A DNA stretch of 64,000 nucleotides from Heliocybe sulcata. Taxonomy: Eukaryota > Basidiomycota > Agaricomycetes > Gloeophyllales > Gloeophyllaceae. Location: positions 626,757 to 690,756 of the forward strand of contig ML213517.1 in NCBI GenBank assembly GCA_004369045.1. Reading direction: 5' to 3'. The translations under genes were made by a program, and so were the position numbers. The notes under the pieces are model-generated. The model did not search any database, was not told where the DNA came from, and saw only the letters and a program-made list of their open reading frames with translations. The stretch's first letter is position 1; every line of letters begins with the position of its first letter. Positions 3,486 to 20,866 of this stretch are shown here, piece after piece.

Positions 3486-4809
3486 CTAATCCACACCTTG
3501 CACATGTTTCAGGACATCCTCAGCCACTGCCTTCGCTTGAGGGAGGTATTTGCTGTCATTGCTCCCGAGCCAGTCTTGAATGACCTGCGATACTATTTGT
3601 CCCTCCACCTTTGGTGAAGGTCGAAGATCGTCAGGGGCCTCTTCCCAAGCAACCTCCTGCTTGATTGGGACACGCGGGATCGCATTTCGGCCTCGGTCAC
3701 GGCTCGTATATCGCCACTTTATCATCTCGAAAAACTCTTTCCAGCCCCAGCCGAAGTTGCGCACTGTCAAATCTTGCACCAAGATGGCCACTTCTTCCGG
3801 CGATCCTAAATTGAAGCCGTCCAGGGCTGATTGGCCCAGACGTACTTCGTCTTGCAGTGCCCCGGCCATGCGATGAAGGCAGGCGGTATTAGCCCAGTTA
3901 TGGTTGACAGACAATGTTTCACTGCGGTTAAGCTATCAGATGCAGTCCGGCTATATACCTGAAATCGTACCCAAAGTTTTTGACCTGCAAGGAGGATGTT
4001 AATAGGAATAACATAGTAATATTAAAACGAACCTCATGGAGCCATCCAGACGGTACAAAAACGGCCTCGCCTGGGTACTGCCAAATAGTCAGCACCCGTT
4101 CCCTTGCATTTGTGATCCGCGGATATTGCGATTCTATCCCCGGCAAAAAGAGCCCAGCGGGCATGTCGCCAGTCGTTTCATCACGGACAAGATGCATGAA
4201 TTCCGGTGCTAAAAATCGCCACCGTTTTGTGCCAGCAAGAGAGCAGCTCCATGAATGGCTGCCATACACGTCACGATGGAAGTTTGTGTTGGAACCGTCC
4301 TGCCCGAGATAGACAAAACGAAAATCGTCGGCTCCTCTTGACTTAGAGATGGAATAGCTATTGAGCCAGTCGTCTGCGAAGATCTCTGGAGTCTGATGGG
4401 CAGCAGATTGTCCGGCGATACAGAAGTGAAAATCCTTTAGATACAGTTTGGCGTTAGGATTTTCGCGCCAGATGGTCGCGAATTCCGAGAAGAGCATGCG
4501 GTCTCGCCGCTGCCCTCCATACTCGTCCGTTTCTTCGCAGAATGCTACGTCCACTTGAGAATCTCGGAATGCCCGTTCGAGGCCGTCGATGTCCGGTGAG
4601 GGACCATCGTCTGTTTGTTTCAGCCACCGTTGAGAAGCGCCCCAAAGCGATAATTCAGGCATAGCAATCAAGCATGGCTTAAGAGGCAGCAGATAGCGAT
4701 CCAAGAATTCTTCGTAAGAAGGAGTAGCGGCAAGGTAATCGAGTGCTTGATCCCGACAGCGTTTTGAAGGTGGGGAGGTCTCCTCCATCTCGAAGGTCGA
4801 GTCTTGCAT
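3486..4809 (-). CDS. JmjC-domain oxygenase, JMJD4-like
   Basis: This is a 2-oxoglutarate and Fe(II)-dependent oxygenase of the JMJD4 group. Animal JMJD4 hydroxylates a lysine of translation termination factor eRF1; the same role here is inferred from similarity. The N-terminal part contains YEEFLDRYLLPLKPCLI, matching the family opening. The iron-binding HxD is in NTNFHRDVYGSHSWSC, and KRWRFLAPE follows. The distal region reads VFVPSGWLHE, then after an intron LNRSETLSVNHNW, which supplies the second histidine. I place the intron at 3933-4032 (100 bp); using the acceptor just before CTTAAC keeps the frame, while a nearer AG would give a stop. The exons are 3486-3932 and 4033-4809. I chose the Met at 4809 because the residues before it (frame open to 4968) are not conserved-looking; 4968 is the alternative start. 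The gene looks intact. Confidence 0.85.
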
Positions 4810-4968
4810 GGATTTTCGCCGGTGAAATGCAAATGTACCCCCGTTCTCAATTGATTGAGACAGAAAACTGTAGCAAGAGTACCAAGTTAAGGTATCTGCA
4901 GCTAAGTGAAGTATCTCGCCGATGGGAGAAACTCGTCTCGGTGAACCTACAAATAGACGCCGTGACAA

Positions 4969-7635
4969 ATGTTACACAATACGTACCATCACGCTCGCGC
5001 TTCTCGGGAATTCAGCTGTTCAGCTGAGCGCCTGTTTGGGCGCTTGGTTTTGCATTTTGTCCTCCTGCTGCATGACGACTCGGTGCGCTACCTTATGCGC
5101 ACGACTGATGCACCTCTCGAGTGCCTTGTGAGGATGGAGCTAGCTTGGATACTTGTCCTCCATGTGCTGGGCACTGCATTGAGAACAGGAAATATCGCGC
5201 ACGATGCGCGGGCACGTTCAGTGCTCCCAGAGGAACTCCCGACACAGAATCGACGGTTCCGGGCCTTCGAGCGTGGCTAGGTGTTTCTGTGACCCTGGTA
5301 CTGGTGAGAGTGCTGCGATCACCTCAGCAGTGCTTTGTTTTGACTCACTGATGCCAACTACCTCTGAGTACGGCAAAGCGGGAATACGGTACTTTTGACA
5401 TGACAGTTCAACAGCTTGTGCGTCAGGGAACCCGCTGGAACCCGCTGACGGCCAGACGGAACGGCATGCTACAGCATCCCGGCCTGATACTGCCTCGGTA
5501 CCGCGCTCTGCGATCTTACGGGTTGCCGTCGTTCCTAAACACCTCTGGGACTTAGATTGCCGGAGATACTGATTCGTGTTCGTGATCTCGCCTTTCCGGA
5601 CCGTGATCTCGCTCTCCTACTTCCGTACTTCACGCGTCGCCTTGCACACTGCTCATATCCTTCTGGCTACGTCACAGACGCGGCGTCAGTTCATGCATGT
5701 ATGAGATATCGGACTCCTGTAAGTTTTGCGCCATCGTGGCGGAGAAAATTCCTCTTACCATTCAGACCTCTCAAACAGAAGTGACGCACTCCACATGCTC
5801 TCTGGAGATCCTACCGCCCCTTACGGCGGAACATTTTCTCGCAGGCGTCTACCGTGGAAGGAACTTACCGGTGTTCGATATTTGCCTGCGATTTAATTTA
5901 CTCACAATAGCCTTTGACAGCGTCTGATCCGGCCAGGAGGACATCCGGTGCCTGAATGCGCGATGCTACGCCCCGCAGCAGCGTTTGACAATTTCTGGCT
6001 GTGGCTGGGAGATAGTGACGAGCATGAACCGTACTGTCGACACATCTTGATCAGGTACCATAGACAGCGCCATCAAGCGCGTCTCAGGGTCCTCAACCGC
6101 CCACATAGCTATTATTACTCAGTGGCATCTGGTATGCACCGTCGTGGTCTGACTGCTTATCACCACGGCCGTAGGCGGTCGGTTTAATCAGGTGTGTGTG
6201 ACTGTTGCTCATACTTCCGCAGAATTTGCATTCATCTGGAATTGTGTTGTTCCACCGGGGAAGCTTTGTTCAACTTTTGTGTCCCCGAGCGACAGCCATG
6301 GAACCCGGTCAAGTATGGCATATGATCAATGCCGAGGTACCTCCCTCATGAATCGAGAATATGAATATCAATTGTCTCACTTATTCTTTTGTCACCTAGC
6401 CGGACTCCCGTTTTATGGCGAACGGATGGTCTTGCCTACATCCCTCGATGTCCAACACTAATCCAAAGTGAATGGTACCTTCTGATTTATGCGAATACGG
6501 GAGTAGTCCCCTATTCATCCTTAATACGTCCAAATCATGTCTAAGCAAGGAAGAAAAACTCTTCGATAGTGGGGCCGGTCACACGTTTGGAAAAATGCAG
6601 GTACGTACTTGGATATCCTTTCTCCGCAGCAGATGATATATTCTGACAAGGTGCGCTCTGGAATAGCTACATACGGCTCCATTATCCAAGCTCCGGGTCA
6701 TGCAAACAGGGCGCGCCGGTTTCGCCCTCGATGCGGACATAGCTATGGACCTGTGCGCTGGCCATTTCATGATATGACTCCGAAGGAGCAGTACCACCGC
6801 GATGCCGACGGCGCTGACCAAGACCAACTCGGCTGTCTGGGTGACATCCCGACCCGGGCTCTGCACCTGGATATGCGACACGAACGACCGAACCCTTGGT
6901 GTGAGTGTTCGACGGGCGCCAATGCTCTGGTGCGTGGCCAAAACTTTCTCATTCGGTGAAGAAGCGTGCACACGGGGCGCGGGAAGAGGGCGCAGTGATG
7001 CGCTATAGCAGGCGGGACTGAATGGTTTCTATGCTGGTTCGGAGCCGCTAATGAGGATGCGTTATGACTGGTGGGAACTTCTCCTTATCCCGATCTAATC
7101 TTGAGTGAAAGTATTCTGGGTGTGACTTACGTCACCCCGTCAGCCACCAACCAAACAGGCCAAAACGCAATTTGTGGACGGAGGCATGTGTTTCGGAGGA
7201 TGATTTATCGTCGGGAAGTACTCTCTCCTTTAGCAGGACGAGGCTGAGCATGGCTATCAGAGGGGCTGCATTCCGCATGGATGCGTTGACGGCGCAGGAC
7301 AAAATTAACGTTGACAAGCGCCAGATTGAGATCTCGGTGAGGTGCGCAGAAGATCTAATCTTCATTACGACCAAAGACTTTCCGACCCTTCAGAGATGAA
7401 ACGCCATGATCTCTCAAAACAATGGCTGTCCCTGCGTTGGCCAATAATTTGGCATCGCTGGCATTCCCAGACGTCAAGTCATGCCGTTCCCAGTACCCAA
7501 ACATGGAGATATCGGAGCCCACGTAGTGGAAATCGAATCTTTGCCAGTTTCCACGCAAATCTCAGCGTTCTGTATTGGACCGGCAACACCGTCTTAGATG
7601 TGGATCTACATCCGCTTGTTTCGGCTCTCTGTCAG
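4969..7635. other. 2.7 kb without a supportable gene
   Basis: Many short open frames on both strands are interrupted and overlap each other. Two minus-strand stretches (6579-6971 and 7132-7374) contain hydrophobic runs and could be remnants of a membrane-protein gene. I could not join them into a plausible protein or recognise a family. A short direct duplication (GGAACCCGCT twice) lies at about 5426-5450. Confidence 0.4.
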
Positions 7636-7643
7636 TATAAAAG
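7636..7643 (+). promoter_or_regulatory. TATA box of sesquiterpene synthase 1
   Basis: TATAAAAG begins 119 bp before the ATG at 7755. The paralogous synthase on the other strand has the same eight bases 123 bp before its own ATG, which supports this being the real core promoter of both genes. Confidence 0.65.
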
Positions 7644-7754
7644 ATGAGTGACTTGACTGAGGGTCGAGCAGGGTCCCTTCCTTTACATTGCTTTCTTCTT
7701 TCTGCACCCGTCTTACACTAATAGGACCTTCCACTCGCTCTCTAATCCTCTATA

Positions 7755-8899
7755 ATGCAATCCTCTACTTCTAAGTCGACGCCTGCTCAGGCATCAGCCC
7801 CAACCAAGATCATCATGCCCGACTTGGTCTCGCACTGCGACTTCAAGCTTCGCGTCAACCGCCACCATAAGCAAGCTGCGGTGGCGTCTGAACGGTGGCT
7901 CTTCCGAGGCGACAACTTGACCGAAGAGGGTCGCACCGCTTTCCGTGGTCTCAAGGCTGGGTTACTCACGTCGATGTGCTACCCTGACGCAGCGTACCCT
8001 CAACTGAAAGTATGCTGCGACTACATGAATTACCTCTTTCATCTCGACAACATCACGGATGATATGGATAAGTCTGGGGCTCGGGGTGTACGGGATGAAG
8101 TGATGGGTGCACTCCGTCATCCTGAGTCGTTCCAGGTGTCCGCGAGGGTTGGAAAGATGACCAAAGAGTGAGCCTCTCCGGATATCGTTTGCTTGATGTC
8201 CTAAATTGACGTTCCTTCTCAGTTTCTGGAAGCGTTACATCCAGACGGGATCGAAGGGGGCTCAGAAACGCTTCATCGACACCTTCGACGCATTCTTTGG
8301 AGCGGTGTATCAACAAGCCATTGACCGCAAGGGCGGTGCCGTCCCCGACCTCGAGTCTTACATCACCCTTCGACGAGACACCAGTGGATGCAGGCCTTGC
8401 CATGCGCTCATCGAATACGCGAACAACTTGGATCTGCCTGACTACGTCATGGAGCACCCCATCATTCGCAGTCTCGAGGATGCTTCGAACGATTTGGTTA
8501 CATGGTCCAACGTAAGTGCATGTAATGCGTGACACTTGATGCCTCTTTACTGACTGGTCACAACAGGACGTCTTCTCTTACAACGTCGAGCAGGCCCGCG
8601 GTGACACCCACAATATGATCATCGTGGTCATGCGCGAGCAAGGCATGTCTCTCCAGGAGGCATTCGACTTTGTCGGAATGATGTGCAAGCAGTCCATTGA
8701 CCGCTTTGTCGCTGACCGGGATAACCTTCCTTCCTGGAGCCCGGAAATCGACCGTCAGGTTGACGTGTACGTCGACGGTCTGGCAAACTGGATCGTGGGC
8801 AGCTTGCACTGGACGTTCGAGTGCACAAGGTATTTCGGTAACAACGGCAAGGAGATCAAGGCCCACCGGACCATCACGCTCTTGCCCAAGCGCGCGTGA
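7755..8899 (+). CDS. Sesquiterpene synthase 1 (class I terpene cyclase)
   Basis: This enzyme should ionise farnesyl diphosphate with Mg2+ and cyclise it to a sesquiterpene in the cytosol. It has three exons, 7755-8167, 8223-8511 and 8567-8899, giving 344 residues, the usual length for basidiomycete enzymes. The splice joins are GA|T (MTKDFW) and SN|D. The aspartate-rich metal motif is DNITD in FHLDNITDDMD, with Asn in the second position. The second metal motif is complete: NDVFSYNVE (NDxxSxxxE). The conserved arginine-tyrosine pair near the end is in CTRYFG. No signal peptide or membrane segment is seen. A TATA box lies 119 bp upstream. The nearest neighbour is a convergent paralogue starting at 11047. 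The product cannot be told from the sequence. The motif context (EQARGDTHNMI) resembles the clade that includes protoilludene synthases, which is a weak inference. Confidence 0.93.
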
Positions 8900-9878
8900 T
8901 ATTCTTGCCACCTTTCTGTAGTGCTGAAACGGTACGCCATCATTCGCTTAAGCGCCTAGCCGTATGTTGAGTTGGCCATTCCTTGCAGATGCCCCACGTC
9001 TACGCCATCGTACCTTGGTTAATACACGGCTAGTGAGGCCGTGCTGCAAAAGTATCCCCGCCATGCCATAATTCGCACGCTGTCTGTATTCTATCGTCGC
9101 CCCTGCGCACCACTCACACTGTAGCATCACCGTATCTGGCATCTAGCCTACACGCTCATTTATTCGTTTTTCTATCGTAGCTATGCCTATCTTTCGTTCA
9201 CTTTAGAGCGTCATAGACGCACACATTCTCTACTTTACAGTTTACTGCTTAATCTAATTGCGTTTAGTGCGCGTATATGACTGTCTTTACATTAATGCAT
9301 TATTGTCGCGGGACTTAGACAACCCTTACGGTACCTGGGGCTCGTATGTAATTAGTACCCGTATGTCACCGCAGAAGCGTATTTATTTGATCGGAGTTGG
9401 AGGGAACCAGGTGTTCTCTTCATTCGAGTTTCATGCCGTATGTTAGCTCGGAACTAAGGAAGTTTGACGGACTTCTCGATTTCGCTCCGTTTTCCAGGGG
9501 ACGACATACGCCGGTAAATTAACAGCTCCAGCTGGTTGGTAACGCCATACTCCCTGATGTCGGAATATCGACTATACCGGTCATAGTCAGCATTAATAAG
9601 AATAAGCTGAAGGGTAGCCTCGGCGTTCGCGGGTAAGTAACTTTGAAGGAAACGTTGAAAGTAGCTCAAAGGTTGATACTGTTGATCGTTGGCAAAAGAA
9701 GTAAAAATAATGGACTCGATCGTATTAGCTTCGTACAGTAGGGCTATCGTAAATAAAGGACATTAGGTACGTACGTGGTCTAGGAGAAGATTATATAGAG
9801 TGATAAGTTTACAGACATCAGCAGATAAGTACTAAGTATGGAACGGTATGCAAGAAACCCCATTAGAAACCGCCGCCT
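8900..9878. other. Spacer between the two convergent synthase genes
   Basis: This 979-bp stretch lies between the two stop codons and must hold both terminators. The first part is CT/AT-rich; I saw no gene, tRNA or transposon end in it. Confidence 0.5.
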
Positions 9879-11047
9879 TTACTGGTATACCCGGGGAAGT
9901 AGTTCAACAATACGGGAAGCTTTGATTTCTTTCCCTTTATCGCCAAAGTACCGTCCAGAATCGAAGGACCAGTGCAAGCTACCAACAATCCAATCTGCCA
10001 AGCCTTGGACGTAGCGAGCCACGGCGTCGTCGATACCGGGACCCCACGAGGGTAGTTGAGCTCGGTCATCGATAAAGCGGTCAATCGACTGCCTGCACAT
10101 GGACCCAACGAAGTCCACAGCGTCCTGCAGCGACATCCGCTTTTGCTGCATGACGACGACGATCATGTTGTGCGTATCTCCGCGAGCCTGTTCGGCATTA
10201 TACGAGAATATATCCTACATAGCAATGAGAGAGACGTATGTGTCAGTTATCGGAAGTCCGAGTGGAGCAGAGACAACACGAGCACTCACGTTGGACCAGG
10301 TGACAAGGTCATTGGCGGCATCTCCCAAGCTTACCAGAAGCGGATGTTCCATGACTTCGTCTGGTATGGCGAGATGATTGGCATACTCGATGAGGGCCCA
10401 GCAGGGTCGGCAGCCACTGGTATCTCGCCGCATGATAATGTAGGACTCGAGATCGGGAATGCGACCTTTTTGACGATCGAGAGCTTGCTGAGTGACTGCC
10501 TTGAAGAAGGCGTCAAATGTTTTGATGAACCGGCTCTCGACGCCGAACGTAGCAGAGGCACTGAGCCGTACCCAAAAACTGAAGCAGCATTAGTCGTTGG
10601 ATTTTCGAGATGATATGGAACGCACTCTTTCGTCATTCTTCCGACTCTGGATGACGATTTATACATGTCGGGCTCTCGAAGGACACCGATAACTTCGTCT
10701 CGTAAAGACCATGTGCTCGAGTTCTTCATGTCGTCCATCAGGTCGTCCAGGTGAAAGAGATAATTCATGAAGTCGCAGCAAACCCGCAGTTCGTGATAGG
10801 GTGCGTGAGGATAGCATGTTGACGTCAGGGACCCAGCCTTCAGGGCAAGGAAGGCTGCACGCCTGTGCTTATTCAAATTGGCGCCCCGTAGGAACCACTC
10901 TTCGGATTCCTTGGAAGCGCGCGCGCAATGGTCGTTACTTCGGAGAGGGAAGTCGCAATGAGATACCAGATCAGGAAGGATGATTTTCGTAGGGCGATCG
11001 TCGTCAGAAAGCTGTCTTGAGCGTCGAGGGATACAGGAGAAATGCAT
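9879..11047 (-). CDS. Sesquiterpene synthase 2 (class I terpene cyclase)
   Basis: This is a paralogue of the synthase at 7755 and should also cyclise farnesyl diphosphate. The exons are 10626-11047, 10290-10578 and 9879-10214, giving 348 residues. Intron positions and phases match synthase 1 exactly (GA|T before FW, and SN|D), and exon 2 is 289 nt in both. The metal motifs are DDLMD in FHLDDLMDDM, the canonical form with a second Asp, and NDIFSYNAE. GRYFG supplies the Arg-Tyr pair. By eye the third exon is about two thirds identical to synthase 1. The N-terminus differs (an Arg-rich start against a Ser/Thr-rich one), and the segment after the first intron (VRLSASATFGVE against KRYIQTGSKGAQ) is very different. 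A TATAAAAG box lies upstream. The gene looks intact. Different residues around the first metal motif suggest that the two enzymes may not make the same product. Confidence 0.92.
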
Positions 11048-11162
11048 GGTGGGTGGGGGGATGGGAGGTGAATGAGACGGGAAAATATCGTTCAGCTATT
11101 GGGTCGGATAAAATAGCCAAAGAAATGACAGCCCGCTCGGACTCACATAACATGAGGCACCG

Positions 11163-11170
11163 CTTTTATA
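11163..11170 (-). promoter_or_regulatory. TATA box of sesquiterpene synthase 2
   Basis: On the minus strand this reads TATAAAAG and starts 123 bp before the ATG at 11047. It matches the box of synthase 1 in sequence and almost in distance. Confidence 0.6.
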
Positions 11171-13321
11171 CCTCTAATATGTGCCGAAACGCGCGGACCC
11201 TAGATTAAGATCTGTTACCGTCTAAACCGCTGTTTCGAGGAAGCGCGCGGCGAGAAGTTCATCGTACGGGCAATATAGGGACCCACTGCGCGAGATCGCC
11301 ACGGCTGAAGTGGACTGCTTGGGTCATCCGCCCACGGCTGCCCCGAGCCATCGTCCGAGGCTTCCATTGCAGTTAGGAAGCATCAGCACCGTTTGCCAGA
11401 AACACTCTTATGACTGTTCGTCCGACGAAGCGTTTACGTACATGTTCGGTCCGTGATCTATACTGCGTACGTTAGAAGCGCGTGTGATACGTACCGTGTA
11501 AGTATATTAACCAATGAGAGTGCTTAGCTTGTTCCAGAGGAATAAGTGGTCTTGACAAAGTCTAAACGAAGTGATGTGTGCATTGCATGAATTGCATGCA
11601 CCTAGTGGGCGAGCGAACGTGAGGTGGAAGCAAGTTCGACCGTGAGACTTACTTTAGAAGTTACTGGTTAGCCACGCCACCATCGAGGCAAATATCGCGA
11701 CCTGCACGAGGCCATAGCGCTTATAAGACTTGCAGTACGGAGCCTGTAGGACCGCGACTCGGACTGGTGATAATACAACTATAGGCCACTGAATCCTAGA
11801 GACTGTCGGAAGGCAACAGCAACGCCGGTACTGTAGCCGTTAGGCAACCGCATTAGCCTTGGATTGCTCCGAGGCGGGAGCAGTCGGATTGTTTTCCCAT
11901 CCTTGTAAACCCCTGAGAAACATGTACGACCGCAACAATCCTCGCGGTGACCCGCCACGTCCGATTATTAAAGGGACGCTCTCAGTATGAAAAGAGTACC
12001 TCCGGTCGACAGGGGCGTGGAAGCGCAGCAGGAACCATCATGCATCAGCACAGTATGTTGCCTCCATGCGTATCAGATAATGGAACGCTTGATATGTCTT
12101 AAACTGCGACATACCTTGACCTATCACTCTCCTGGAAGACCATGGGTGCTTTGTCTTGTCAGCCAGTGAGCATTGTAACCACAGAAAATGAGCGGTTGAC
12201 ACGGTGGAAGCGGATTCTCAGAACTGGATCATATACGCGTACCTTGAGTTGGAGAAAGGGAAGGGCATCTGCGACTTGCAAAGTTTAGTATACCCGTCTT
12301 CACGATCACTTAGAGAATGATGAGCCAGAACATACGCATCAGTGCTTCCTGCTAGCACCTCATTCATGCCAGATCATCGCAAAGAGTTCTATTGTCTTGC
12401 TGCGGCCCTATGTCCACCGTGGTTGATGAGTCCCGCAACAACCCGTGGCGCTAATGAAAGCTGGTTTATTAGAATAAATAAGGATCCCCGGGTAACGGTC
12501 CACCCGGAAAGCTCTGCATTCAACGCAGGTGGAGAGTAGAGGTCATTTCGATGACAGTTCCATGCATGGCCAGCAATGTAGGAGGCGGCAAGATAGATTC
12601 TGGAATATCTAGCGATGGCATCTTCGGGGTGCAACCCGACCTTAGATGGGCGACTGACGTCGCAGAGACCGTCCATCGTGGCATTGAAGGTGCTGCTATG
12701 ACATTTCATCCGAGTCGTCAGGAAAGCAGGGTAAGGCAACCAACAGATGGTCATCCATGATGAACAAGCCCCAACGACGAGGCGAGGCGCGTTAAGACTC
12801 TAGAATTTGCCCGTCGTTCATCCGAAGTCCCCATGGTTTCGGGAACCCACTGACACAGTGTATTCCTCCTGAACACTCCGGCGTGTGCGTCCAGGGATGA
12901 GAACGAGTTAATATCAGTAATAATGGCTCATTCCAAGCAAGGGCATGGTGACCGCAACAAGGAAAACCCGGGCGCTCTGTAAGCAGGGCAGTACCCCGCA
13001 GCAGCAAGGTGCCCAGCACCCCTCCTTCACGCGTAAGTTAGACTATCAAGCTGTGCGCTCAAAGGCAACTGAGGAGGACGACTTAGCTCCGCACAGCATA
13101 GTCGAGACCCACTGCTGAATCTCGCCGAAACGTTATCAGCCCGTCTCCGTGCGCGTGCTCTGAATAGTACGCCGTTCGCGCTATTCTTGCGATGATATGG
13201 AGCTATGGATACATCCCGAGGAGCGAATACAAGATCTACAGCTCCGGCTTGAAAACGCATGTTCAAAGGCGTGGCTAATAAACTCTCACCGCGTATACTA
13301 AGCATCCAGCAGGTCCCAACC
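11171..13321. other. 2.1 kb without a supportable gene
   Basis: Only short, mutually overlapping open frames are present. No domain, tRNA or clear repeat was recognised. The stretch from 11200 to 12000 is dense in stops on both strands. Confidence 0.45.
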
Positions 13322-16434: not shown

Positions 16435-18558
16435 ATGCTGACCTGGAAGGCGACCGATATACTTGTTGTGTTTCTGATAGTCCTTTCAGGTGCTGTCGCA
16501 GCACGTTATAGGTGGTCCTCAAGACGGAACCGAGGGAGACCGTATCCGCCTGGCCCACCTGCTTATCCGGTGGTAGGCAACATCGTCAAGATCCCGCCAA
16601 AGGGGCCCTGGTTGAAGTTCGCAGAGTATAAGAAGCGATACGGTGAGGTGCCTCTAATCATACTATCGTCCGAGTCTTGACGTTTCCTTTCTGGACTAAG
16701 GCGATCTTGTGTATTTCCAAGGATTGGGCAACTCGATACTAGTCCTCAATTCCGCAAAGGTTATCAATGACTTATTGGACAAGAGAGCCGACGTATACTC
16801 GCACCGTCCGGAACTCGTAGTCGCAGGTGAACTCATGAGGCTCGATCAGGTTTAGCGCGATTTACCCTATGTCCTGCAGAATGCTTACACAATCTCCAGG
16901 GAGTAGGTTCCCTCCCATATGGACGAGAGTGGCGCACACAGCGCAAGCTATGTGCCGTTGCATTGAGTGCTACTGCTGTAAAGCAGTATTATGGCGTGCA
17001 GGAGGATGCGGCCGCACTGCTAGCCAAGGCTTTAGTAACGTCCCCCGAGAGCTTCACAGGGCATGTCAGGCTGTACGTCGTCACCTATGCACTTCGAGAC
17101 CTACGGATCTTCTCTAAGGCAGGAGATCGTCCATATAGAGCAGCAGCTCGCATTGTTCTCACTGTCACGTACGGGATACCGGTCAAAAGTTTCGATGACG
17201 AGGTGTGTGGCCTATTCAATATCTGATATGATTGTTTGGTTACCTTCATTGGCAGTTGGTGAAGCTCGCCGAAGACACTATGGACGTCGTCACTGAAGCC
17301 CTCGTACCTGGCACGTTCCTCGTCGATTTCTTACCGTTTCGTAAGGTTCTCCGCATAGAGATCCCAATTCCCAATTTATTGTGACTTTCAGTGAAAATTC
17401 TGCCGTCATGGATGCCGTTTCATCAGTACGGAAGGCGAGGGAAAGCCCTACTCGACGAGCTCATGAATTCACCCTTTGAGCGGGTCAAACGAAATATGGT
17501 GAATCATCGTTGTGGATCATGCCTCACTGCGAAGTCATCAGCATGATCTAGGACTTGGGGGAAGCTCCACCTTCCTTGACGCAGCACCTGCTGGGCACCA
17601 AATTCGAGGGGATGTCCAATATCGAACATTCCATGAAATGGGCCACGGGGACTATGTACGGGGGTGAGAGCGAATTATGCAAGACATCCTGTGTCCGTGA
17701 ACTAATGATCATGCCGATTCTCGTAGCGGGTGGAGAGACGACATATGCAGTCGTTATGATATTCATTTTGGCAATGGCACTATATCCGGAGAAGCAGTGG
17801 AAAGCTCAGGAGGAGATTGATGCACTGTTGGGTGGCAATAGACTCCCTATTGTGGCGGACCGCGACCACTTGCCATACGTGTCTGCCCTGATAAAGGAGA
17901 CGATGAGGTGGTACCCGGTAGTGCCCTTGAGTCCGCAAGACCGCTTGGTTCCGTTTGACACGAATTGACTGCAGGTTATCTAGGTCTCCCTCGCATGACG
18001 GCCGAGGACGACGTATATGAAGGGTACTTCGTACCTAAAGGAACTATAGTAATGCCGAATGTCTGGTACGTGCTTGCATCATGAGTCCCTATGGTCGTGT
18101 AATATTTTCGTTCCTTAGGTCGGTGGCGTTTGAAAACAACGCCAAGTATCCTCCCGAGCAGTTCATTCCAGAACGCTTCCTGGACGAGCAAGTGTCTACG
18201 CCTGATCCCGCTTCTTGGTTATTCGGCTTTGGGCGTCGGTACGGCTCATATTGATACACCTTGATGCCGCTCATCTTTGCCCAGGATCTGTCCTGGGATA
18301 TTCCTGGCCGAGAACTCCGTCTTCGTTCTGATTGCCACTATCTTAACAGCCTTTGATATCAGCCCGCCACCTGACGGAGAGCTCAAGCCTGAATTCATTC
18401 TGAATCTCATCAGGTAAGCCCAGATTATGCATCCTGTGCGCGGTTACTCGTCTGATTGATATTCTAGCTATCCGAAGCCATATGATTGCCAAATTTTGCC
18501 TCGCTCGGATGCGGCAGTGAGACTAGTGGAGGCTCGGGCCTTACAATGCAACTTGTGA
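16435..18558 (+). CDS. Cytochrome P450 monooxygenase
   Basis: This is a haem-thiolate monooxygenase anchored in the ER by its N-terminus, working with a P450 reductase. Residues about 8-26 form a hydrophobic anchor ([17 protein letters not shown]), followed by the proline hinge [16 protein letters not shown] read about ten exons (first 16435-16642, second from 16701). Key motifs are complete. The I-helix oxygen-binding motif is AGGETT, formed across a splice join near 17725. The K-helix ExxR is ETMR (about 17900). The PERF motif is FIPERFL, and the haem-binding loop is FGFGRR|ICPG, joined across the intron at about 18239-18283. Every join I tried stays in frame, including CT|A GCA before [10 protein letters not shown], so the gene appears intact. 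The C-terminus is ALQCNL. The family looks like the fungal O-methylsterigmatocystin-oxidoreductase-like P450s common in agaricomycetes. Its place 5.4 kb from synthase 2 makes it a candidate for oxidising the terpene product, but that is inference. Confidence 0.88.
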
Positions 18559-18735: not shown

Positions 18736-20866
18736 TCAGGCCCGTCTGACGACACTGACGTGCACATCCCCCTCAGATTTACTTTTACGTCCGGCTGTCG
18801 CATCGAAGTGGCCGTCGCCGACCTTCTCCTGCTCTATAAGATGCAAGTCGGGGCCCTCGAACGATCTCCTGCCTTGCACGAGCCAGAAGCCGGCTGCGAT
18901 GAGCAGGATGAAGACGAGGATGCATGATGTGTAGTTCATGTTCTATGAGGAGTGGTAGTTAGACACGGTGCGAGGAGCGAGAGGAAGGGGAGCGGACGTA
19001 CAGAAGGGGTCACCGGGCTGACGGTCGGAATTAACATGGTCGCGCTGATAAACGTGAGGTATACCGATGCAGCGATGTTCGCAGGCCATCCCCAGCGGCC
19101 GAGCCTAGCATAGAGCGTGGTCAGACCTCAATCGAGCAAGATCAAGGCAATGGCTTACTTGAATGGCCTCGACTCATCCAACTTCCTTCCCTTAGCCATG
19201 AGCGCGGCGATGGGGAGCAGATACGCCAAGTCGAACCCAATCGTGGCGAGAGAAATGATGGTATAGAACAGCGTCGAGGAGCCGATATACAGGACCAGCA
19301 TGACAACCTCGATGAACGCCGAAACGATGAGCGCGTTCGTCGGCACCAAGCGCTGCTCGTTCACCCGCTTAAAGAAGCTCGGGAATGGGAACGCGCCGTC
19401 CCTCGCGAACGCGTACACGGTCCTTGACGTTGCCATGAGCATCGAGTTTAGCGCGAGCAGCGCGCACGTTGTAGGGAGGAGCGCGAGGAACACGCCCGCC
19501 GGTTTGTTGTTCGTGCTCAAGTAGGCGAGGGCGAGGAAGGGCGAGCCGATCTCGGACGCGAGAATCTCGTCGATGCGGGTGAGGCAGAAGAGGAGGGGGA
19601 TGATAACGACCAACCCCGAGAAGGCACCGGTGACAACGGTCACGATGAGAGCTTTGGGGACATTCTTGGCTGGCTCTGTCATTTCTTCCGACATCTGTGG
19701 CATATTAGGATCTGTGGGAGTATAGGGCAGGAGGGTCGGGACGTACATGCGTGACGGAGTCGTATCCGATCATGGTGTACGCGCTTTGGAGAAGACCGAG
19801 GATGAAGACGAGGGCATGTGATGACCATCCGGTGTTGTTAATGTCTGAATCAAGTCATGTTTGGGTTCTAACTCGTCAGGTGCACAGGAAGTAAATGTCT
19901 CACAGGCTGTGAATGCGAAGTCGGCGGTCTGTTTTGGGTGGACTGTCGCCAGCAGGGTGATAATGATGGCTAGAACACCAAGAATATTGTAGGCAACTAA
20001 TACATCGGACAGCGATGTCAGCAGGTTGCAGTCATCAACGTAGTGATTGTGACGTACGTAGGATAGTGTTAATCTTAGCGAGATGCTGGTTGGCAAAGAT
20101 GTTCGCCAGTACAGATATGGCGAGGAAGAAGAAGCAGATGAGGACGAGGTGCCAAGGCTGCGAAACGTAGTCTGGATGGTATAGCGATGCAGCGGCGGTG
20201 AATGTGAAGGCGGCTTGGAAGACTGCAGACGCTCCGAACGCCCACTGCCCAGCTGAATACGGACAGTCAATTCTGTGCTTGCAAACGAGAATGGTGGGCC
20301 GTACCAAGGTTCAGCCATCCCGTAACGTAGGACAACTCTCTCCTCCATCGCGGAGACGCCACGCGGAAGATCCAATAGGACGGACCGCCCGCTGAAGGGA
20401 AGGCAGAGCATAACTCTCCTAGGGACAGGGCGACGAAGATAGTAAAGGTGCAGACGATTATCCCTGAGTAATATCCGTCATAGGGATGGCCGTTGAGTCA
20501 TCAAACGGTATATACGTACATCCCCAGAAGAGTGCTTGTGGTCCTCCACTGTTGAGAGGTGCAACCAGGGTAAGATAGATGGCTGAAGGTGGTCTATGTT
20601 GATGATCATTAATGACCTTTGCAGTTGCAGTCTTGTACCACCCGAGACCTACGTCAAAGTCATATACCTACGATAGCGAGGTCAATACACGCAGGATAGT
20701 CACGAAGAAGCTGCATTACGCACCCCATCGCAGTCAAGGCAAGCAAGGAGAAATGTCTCCTGAACTCCTGCTTGTACCCCAAGCGCTCCGTCTCATCGGG
20801 CTCCTGACCAGGATACATCGAATCAAATATGTTCTTCTCGTTCGTAGATGAGGAGGCGTCGGTCAT
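18736..20866 (-). CDS. APC-superfamily amino acid/GABA permease
   Basis: This is a polytopic plasma or vacuolar membrane transporter of the amino acid-polyamine-choline superfamily, closest in style to fungal GABA/choline permeases (Uga4/Hnm1 type). The gene has many exons. The N-terminus (MTDASSSTNEKNIF...) is followed by ETERLGYKQEFRRHFSLLAL, the conserved start of this group. Next come AGGPSYWIFRVASPRW and SYVTGWLNLG (about 20280-20400), typical of TM3-TM4. The large exon at 19155-19748 carries MSEEMTEPAKNVPKAL, a hallmark loop, and ALNSMLMATSRTVYAFARDG with FKRVN, then several TM segments. The exon LGRWGWPANIAASVYLTF and a last exon with TM NYTSCILVFILLIAAGFWL complete it, ending in a charged cytosolic tail. 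The Met at 20866 or 20875 may be the start. Substrate specificity cannot be read from the sequence. Confidence 0.85.

Follow-up and report, generated by a model that had tools for sequence, protein, structure and literature searches.

The stretch of Heliocybe sulcata DNA analysed here (64,000 nucleotides, referred to below as the window; C15:626757-690756 in a genome of 31.6 Mb and 51 contigs) includes two complete sesquiterpene synthase genes, designated A and B. As described in the first-pass annotation, the two genes are convergent, their stop codons lying 979 bp apart (9879-8899-1). Each spliced model reads as an uninterrupted frame up to its terminal stop, and GT-AG borders are found at all four introns. 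The window also has 245 N, visible as X in frames at ~31.8-32.1 kb, a possible gap. The layout of the pair is as follows:

7755..8899, + strand: sesquiterpene synthase A, exons 7755-8167, 8223-8511 and 8567-8899, 344 aa (spliced model)
8900..9878, no strand: intergenic region between the stop codons of A and B, 979 bp
9879..11047, - strand: sesquiterpene synthase B, exons 11047-10626, 10578-10290 and 10214-9879, 348 aa (spliced model)

The products of A and B match PF19086 at 190.0 bits (E 5.1e-56) and 193.8 bits (E 3.6e-57), respectively, against a curated cut-off of 23.7. A search of the PDB with A gave Copu9 (7ofl) as the best match (E 1.5e-124), followed by AcCop4 and protoilludene synthase; the nearest relatives detected were enzymes of basidiomycetes. 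Both proteins share 54% identity with Copu9 (A 185/340, B 179/332), 38-39% with AcCop4 and 35-36% with protoilludene synthase, and the order of identities for B (Copu9 54%, AcCop4 38%, protoilludene synthase 35%) matches the top PDB ranking of A. The metal-binding motifs were located at the following positions:

8046..8060, + strand: Asp-rich motif of A, DNITD (aa 98-102), opposite DDWLD in the alignment with Copu9
8567..8590, + strand: NSE motif NDVFSYNVE of A, with the codon for its initial N at the end of exon 2 (8509-8511)
10733..10747, - strand: Asp-rich motif of B, DDLMD (aa 101-105), from the alignment with Copu9
10191..10214, - strand: NSE motif NDIFSYNAE of B, with the codon for its initial N at the end of exon 2 (10292-10290)

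The class I motifs D(D/E/N)xx(D/E) and NDxxSxxxE are thus present in both A and B, together with a WxxxxxRY motif (WTFECTRY in A and WSFDSGRY in B) and the clade I signature DTSGC, which was found in 95% of clade 1 sequences (Hage et al., PMC10210940).

Copu9, a (+)-delta-cadinol synthase (PMC9018054), and Copu5, which makes the same product, are both enzymes of Coniophora puteana and have in common with A and B the PF19086 domain and all 12 of the pocket residues listed for Copu9 (Ringel et al., PMC9018054). Copu9 also shares with them the NSE motif, the RY pair and DTSGC, but motif I reads DDWLD in Copu9 and DDWSD in Copu5 as against DNITD and DDLMD in A and B, whose product is predicted only. 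Further Copu9 residues identical in both A and B are T73, C76, R190, D191, T192, P197, N228 and S314, of which T73, C76, T192, P197, N228 and S314 were mutated in PMC9018054, as well as N235, S239, E243, R323 and Y324. R188 and R223, as printed in that paper, were left out of the comparison because they do not fit the numbering used (188 is V). A further synthase of this genome, C3_120k (L004; motifs DNISD and NDIFSYNVE), has 11 of the 12 pocket residues, indicating that pocket identity is not a strict test for a delta-cadinol synthase. Its motifs equal those of Cop3, listed with alpha-muurolene first, and of CpSTS3, listed with delta-cadinol first (PMC10608071), and pocket identity would not, by itself, fix the product of A or B.

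The first-pass annotation had pointed to differences between A and B in the first metal motif and in the segment just after intron 1, and had suggested that the pair may have split into two products. Both differences were found. DNITD in A stands against DDLMD in B, and A has N where Copu9 has D100. Across 172 characterised mushroom synthases, motif I has been described as D(D/E/N)xx(D/E) (PMC10608071); by our own count it starts with DN in 18 of the 172 rows of Table 2 of that paper, including active germacrene A, alpha-muurolene and delta-cadinol synthases, and DDLMD appears there once, in SiTPS. As DNxxD occurs in active characterised enzymes, the difference in motif I does not alone imply different products. 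The clade I synthases Cop3, BvCS, Agr3 and CpSTS3, compared by motif only, have a motif I like that of A, and the NSE motif of BvCS (NDVFSYNVE) is the same as that of A. The motif I filter printed in PMC10210940, (D/N)DXX(D/E) or DDXXXE, would in that form pass over A, Cop3 and other DNxxD enzymes. In a literature search at keyword level, no paper treating DNxxD in fungal terpene synthases was found.

In the segment after intron 1 (Copu9 140-156), A and B agree at 6 of 17 positions, compared with 217/344 overall. Conservation of this segment in the family is average (0.54 vs 0.54 overall, 12 rows), and none of the 12 published Copu9 pocket residues falls within it. With all 12 pocket residues shared by A and B, and motif I within the characterised range in each, the sequence gives no pointer to a split into two products.

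The shared intron layout, which had been read as a sign of duplication, was also recovered, with intron 1 in phase 2, intron 2 in phase 0 and a middle exon of 289 nt in both genes. However, phase-2 and phase-0 introns flank the middle exon in all 13 synthase models of the genome that span both introns, and this exon is 289 nt long in 10 of the 13 (283, 265 and 265 nt in the remaining three). These traits therefore belong to the family rather than to the pair and are weakened as evidence for a duplication, and the case of A and B shows that intron layout and exon length are a poor guide to recent duplication in PF19086 synthases. The census covered PF19086 places only, as distinct from PF06330 (trichodiene-type, clade IV) synthases; there are 23 such places, representing 14 genes or fragments, all modelled and one of them (L022) a fragment.

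A and B share 63% identity over their full length (217/344) and 65% locally (213/327), and each is 50% identical to C3_120k, compared with 54% to Copu9. The phylogenies did not place them in distant clades. They were sisters with support of 95/95 in an 18-row tree that also held 11 other synthase models of this genome and 5 PDB chains, and with support of 90/91 in a reduced tree of 11 rows. This grouping makes a local inverted duplication, as first proposed, the simplest reading, though sampling outside this genome is thin: the trees hold one clade I sequence from elsewhere, and a closer relative of A or B could split the pair. A and B grouped with Copu9 and C3_120k, apart from clades II and III, with support of 99/98 in the 11-row tree and of 85/95 in the 18-row tree, which includes a degenerate gene on C9; in this grouping Copu9 was the single clade I reference, and the clades sampled were I to III.

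The duplication is old, as fourfold sites at identical residues are randomised, with 25 of 97 agreeing between A and B against 27.5% expected from composition. Codon positions 1, 2 and 3 are 72%, 80% and 39% identical, respectively, and the far greater likeness of the first two indicates purifying selection on the protein sequence. A search of the A/B region for inverted repeats found none better than 76%; those that remain (72-76%) lie inside coding exons or span the exon 2 donor site. Recent gene conversion was considered and rejected, as third-position identity in 40-codon blocks was 0.23-0.55 and no block was near-identical.

Of basidiomycete synthase genes, 25.4% have been reported as tandem copies, and for 85% of these the tandem stays within a single clade (PMC10210940). 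A and B resemble these tandem genes in that the second copy lies within four genes and belongs to the same clade; the pair is convergent, and the tandem definition of that paper, as given, makes no distinction of orientation. A scenario in which the inverted duplication arose recently within this lineage, retained its promoter and diverged to two dissimilar products would agree with the sister relationship, the common TATA position and upstream element described below, the difference in motif I and the divergent segment after intron 1. It is nevertheless unlikely, as the synonymous sites are randomised, the introns and exon 2 length are family-wide, all 12 pocket residues are identical and tandem synthases mostly stay within one clade.

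That one copy of the pair is silent or catalytically dead despite its intact frame is also improbable. Odd copies do occur in this genome, and elsewhere, among 6 C. puteana candidates carrying the two motifs, only 2 proved functional (PMC9018054), and the clade I synthase Omp2 is listed without a product (PMC10608071). Both A and B, however, retain their splice sites, the RY pair and the metal ligands, the second Asp being replaced by N in A, and divergence at third positions is far above that at positions 1 and 2. The odd copies are L002 (C9:509597-510091, - strand) and L022 (C6:944858-945046, - strand). L002 is clade-I-like, but its model is without the entire Asp-rich motif and has TDIFSYSTD in place of the NSE motif and WY in place of RY, so it is dead, mis-modelled or non-canonical. 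L022 is a synthase fragment with an in-frame stop.

Two further groups of synthase genes were observed in the genome. Three genes (L012, L013 and L008) lie head to tail on the + strand at 98-103 kb of C35; exon 1 of the middle model is interrupted by an in-frame stop. Sequences upstream of the first and third genes align well (score 58, 0/300 shuffles as good), unlike those of A and B, suggesting that this array is younger. A second facing pair, L003 (C12, 59.9 kb, + strand) and L007 (70.1 kb, - strand), has the clade 2 motif LRRENS with the genes 9-10 kb apart, and its members are not sisters, as C12_59k groups with AcCop4.

The reading we prefer, to which we give a probability of about 0.75, is that A and B are functional class I, clade I synthases derived from an old local inverted duplication, with products predicted from sequence to be cadinanes or muurolanes. 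Each enzyme would bind three Mg2+ via D(D/N)xxD and the NSE motif, ionise (2E,6E)-FPP and bring about a 1,10 ring closure to the germacradienyl cation, and the end product would be an alcohol or olefin with a cadinane/muurolane skeleton, similar to delta-cadinol or alpha-muurolene. Reaction and product are proposed here from the clade motif DTSGC and the pocket identity with Copu9. A and B probably yield products with a common skeleton, and the difference between them may be confined to stereochemistry or by-products. LmSTC1, another clade 1 enzyme, makes delta-cadinol (PMC10210940); the same study found clade 1 in Polyporales not to be monophyletic and urged caution on its chemistry (Hage et al.).

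A close parallel is provided by GME3634 and GME3638 of Lignosus rhinocerotis, clustered synthases assigned to clade I by the authors that are 57.2% identical and yield alpha-cadinol and (+)-torreyol; homologous pairs have been reported from T. versicolor, T. cinnabarina and D. squalens (PMC5468996). Table 1 of PMC10608071 places Copu5 and GME3638 in clade IV, which for GME3638 conflicts with PMC5468996. Like the Lignosus genes, A and B are two genomically clustered clade I synthases, but they are 63-65% identical and their products are predicted only. A and B could thus be the local version of a conserved polypore pair that made isomeric cadinols ancestrally, for example with A forming delta-cadinol and B alpha- or T-cadinol. 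Besides the published clustering, isomeric products and homologous pairs in three polypores, an NSE motif ending in NAE, as in B, occurs in just 4 of the 172 rows of Table 2 of PMC10608071 (GME3634, AcTPS5, GS02363 and GL26009), and that of A ends in NVE, as in GME3638 and BvCS. However, NAE is a cue of a single residue, NVE is common, and GL26009, with NAE, is listed with muurolenes (PMC10608071). In a pair of the GME3634/GME3638 type, one member would belong to subclade Ia and the other to Ib, and A and B were sisters in both trees. As A and B are also more alike than the published pair and group together relative to Copu9, we regard descent from such an ancestral pair as a tentative alternative, less probable than the local duplication preferred here. 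Other related cases are CubG1 and CubG2, adjacent, near-identical clade IV synthases (PMC13096983), and another torreyol-making Lignosus synthase (PMC12864622). A keyword-level search of the literature found no paper on convergently arranged mushroom sesquiterpene synthases.

The upstream regions of A and B were also examined. The sequence TATAAAAG was present ~120 bp before each ATG, as initially noted, and a 15-bp element with the common pattern TCCGCNNGTTTCGGC was found further upstream, on the same strand relative to each gene:

7611..7625, + strand: shared element of A, TCCGCTTGTTTCGGC, starting 25 bp upstream of the TATA box
7636..7643, + strand: TATA box of A, TATAAAAG, at -119 from the ATG
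11163..11170, - strand: TATA box of B, TATAAAAG, at -123 from the ATG
11183..11197, - strand: shared element of B, TCCGCGCGTTTCGGC, starting 27 bp upstream of the TATA box

There are two copies of TATAAAAG in the window, both before A and B, and 566 in the genome. As at least two copies arose in 20 of 100 shuffles, the count alone is unremarkable and its weight rests on position. Of the 12 other synthase models, 4 likewise have TATAAAA/T no more than 350 bp from their start.

The claim that the duplication kept its promoter may hold for the TATA box and the 15-bp element, both present at A and B, but not for the remainder. Between TATA box and ATG, no alignment of A and B above chance was found (1475/2000 shuffles as good), and the upstream 300 bp showed no similarity above chance (32/300 shuffles as good). 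Whole-promoter similarity was rejected, as the local score over 600 bp was 21 against a shuffled mean of 19.9 and that over 300 bp was also near chance. Anchored on the TATA box, the score for A and B was reached by 5/2000 shuffles within 40 bp, 10/2000 within 60 bp, 35/2000 within 100 bp and 54/500 within 200 bp. At the same distances, 0, 3, 8 and 46 of 435 background TATAAAAG pairs scored as well, as did 1, 1, 3 and 4 of 60 comparisons of A or B with background sites, the background set being the first 30 of the 566 sites, all on contig C1.

The evidence for TCCGCNNGTTTCGGC as a real promoter feature is suggestive only, coming from the 40-bp comparisons and from the same strand and nearly equal spacing at A and B. 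Exact copies were absent from the rest of the 31.6-Mb genome, but the pattern was derived from these two sites, and its reversed control had one exact match. When up to one mismatch was allowed, the pattern had 40 sites in the genome, 38 of them in addition to these two, and its reversed control had 59; a genome-wide regulon was rejected on this count. Given these counts, and the ease with which equal scores arise within 200 bp of the TATA box, the shared element is somewhat more probably a chance match, with A and B regulated independently.

The element reads CCG-N7-CGG, which we take to be the shape of Zn2Cys6 sites. A local Zn2Cys6 regulator was considered and rejected, as none of the 20 PF00172 matches listed was on the contig of the window. 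It is a long shot that TCCGCNNGTTTCGGC and TATAAAAG form a private promoter module, possibly bound by a Zn2Cys6 regulator at CCG-N7-CGG, that selection has preserved before both synthases while neutral similarity was erased; the pair would then be a co-regulated two-enzyme unit making a fixed blend of stereoisomeric cadinols. No paper on Zn2Cys6 everted repeats in terpene promoters was found at keyword level.

Three neighbouring genes were noted:

3931-4971, - strand: JmjC/cupin gene (Pfam)
about 16435-18558, + strand: intact-looking cytochrome P450, read by eye, with PF00067 on 17552-17965
19158-19769, - strand: amino-acid permease (Pfam)

The P450, a candidate oxidiser of the A/B product, is separated from B by a Duc1-domain gene and a tRNA-Ser, its start lying 5.4 kb past that of B; no copy of the shared element with up to 3 mismatches was found near the P450 start. 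A terpene cluster around A and B was rejected on these grounds, and the evidence for a biosynthetic cluster is weak. The Pfam search covered 20 of the window's 146 long frames, so further enzymes may have escaped it, and P450 counts are lower bounds, from 92 of 262 candidates scored.

As clade I cadinol synthases that occur in pairs and form isomeric products have already been published, A and B are a true but ordinary pair. They add one adjacent clade I pair to the published pattern and provide two well-defined candidates for cadinol-type synthases. If the shared element is functional, the pair would also offer a handle on the regulation of mushroom terpene genes.
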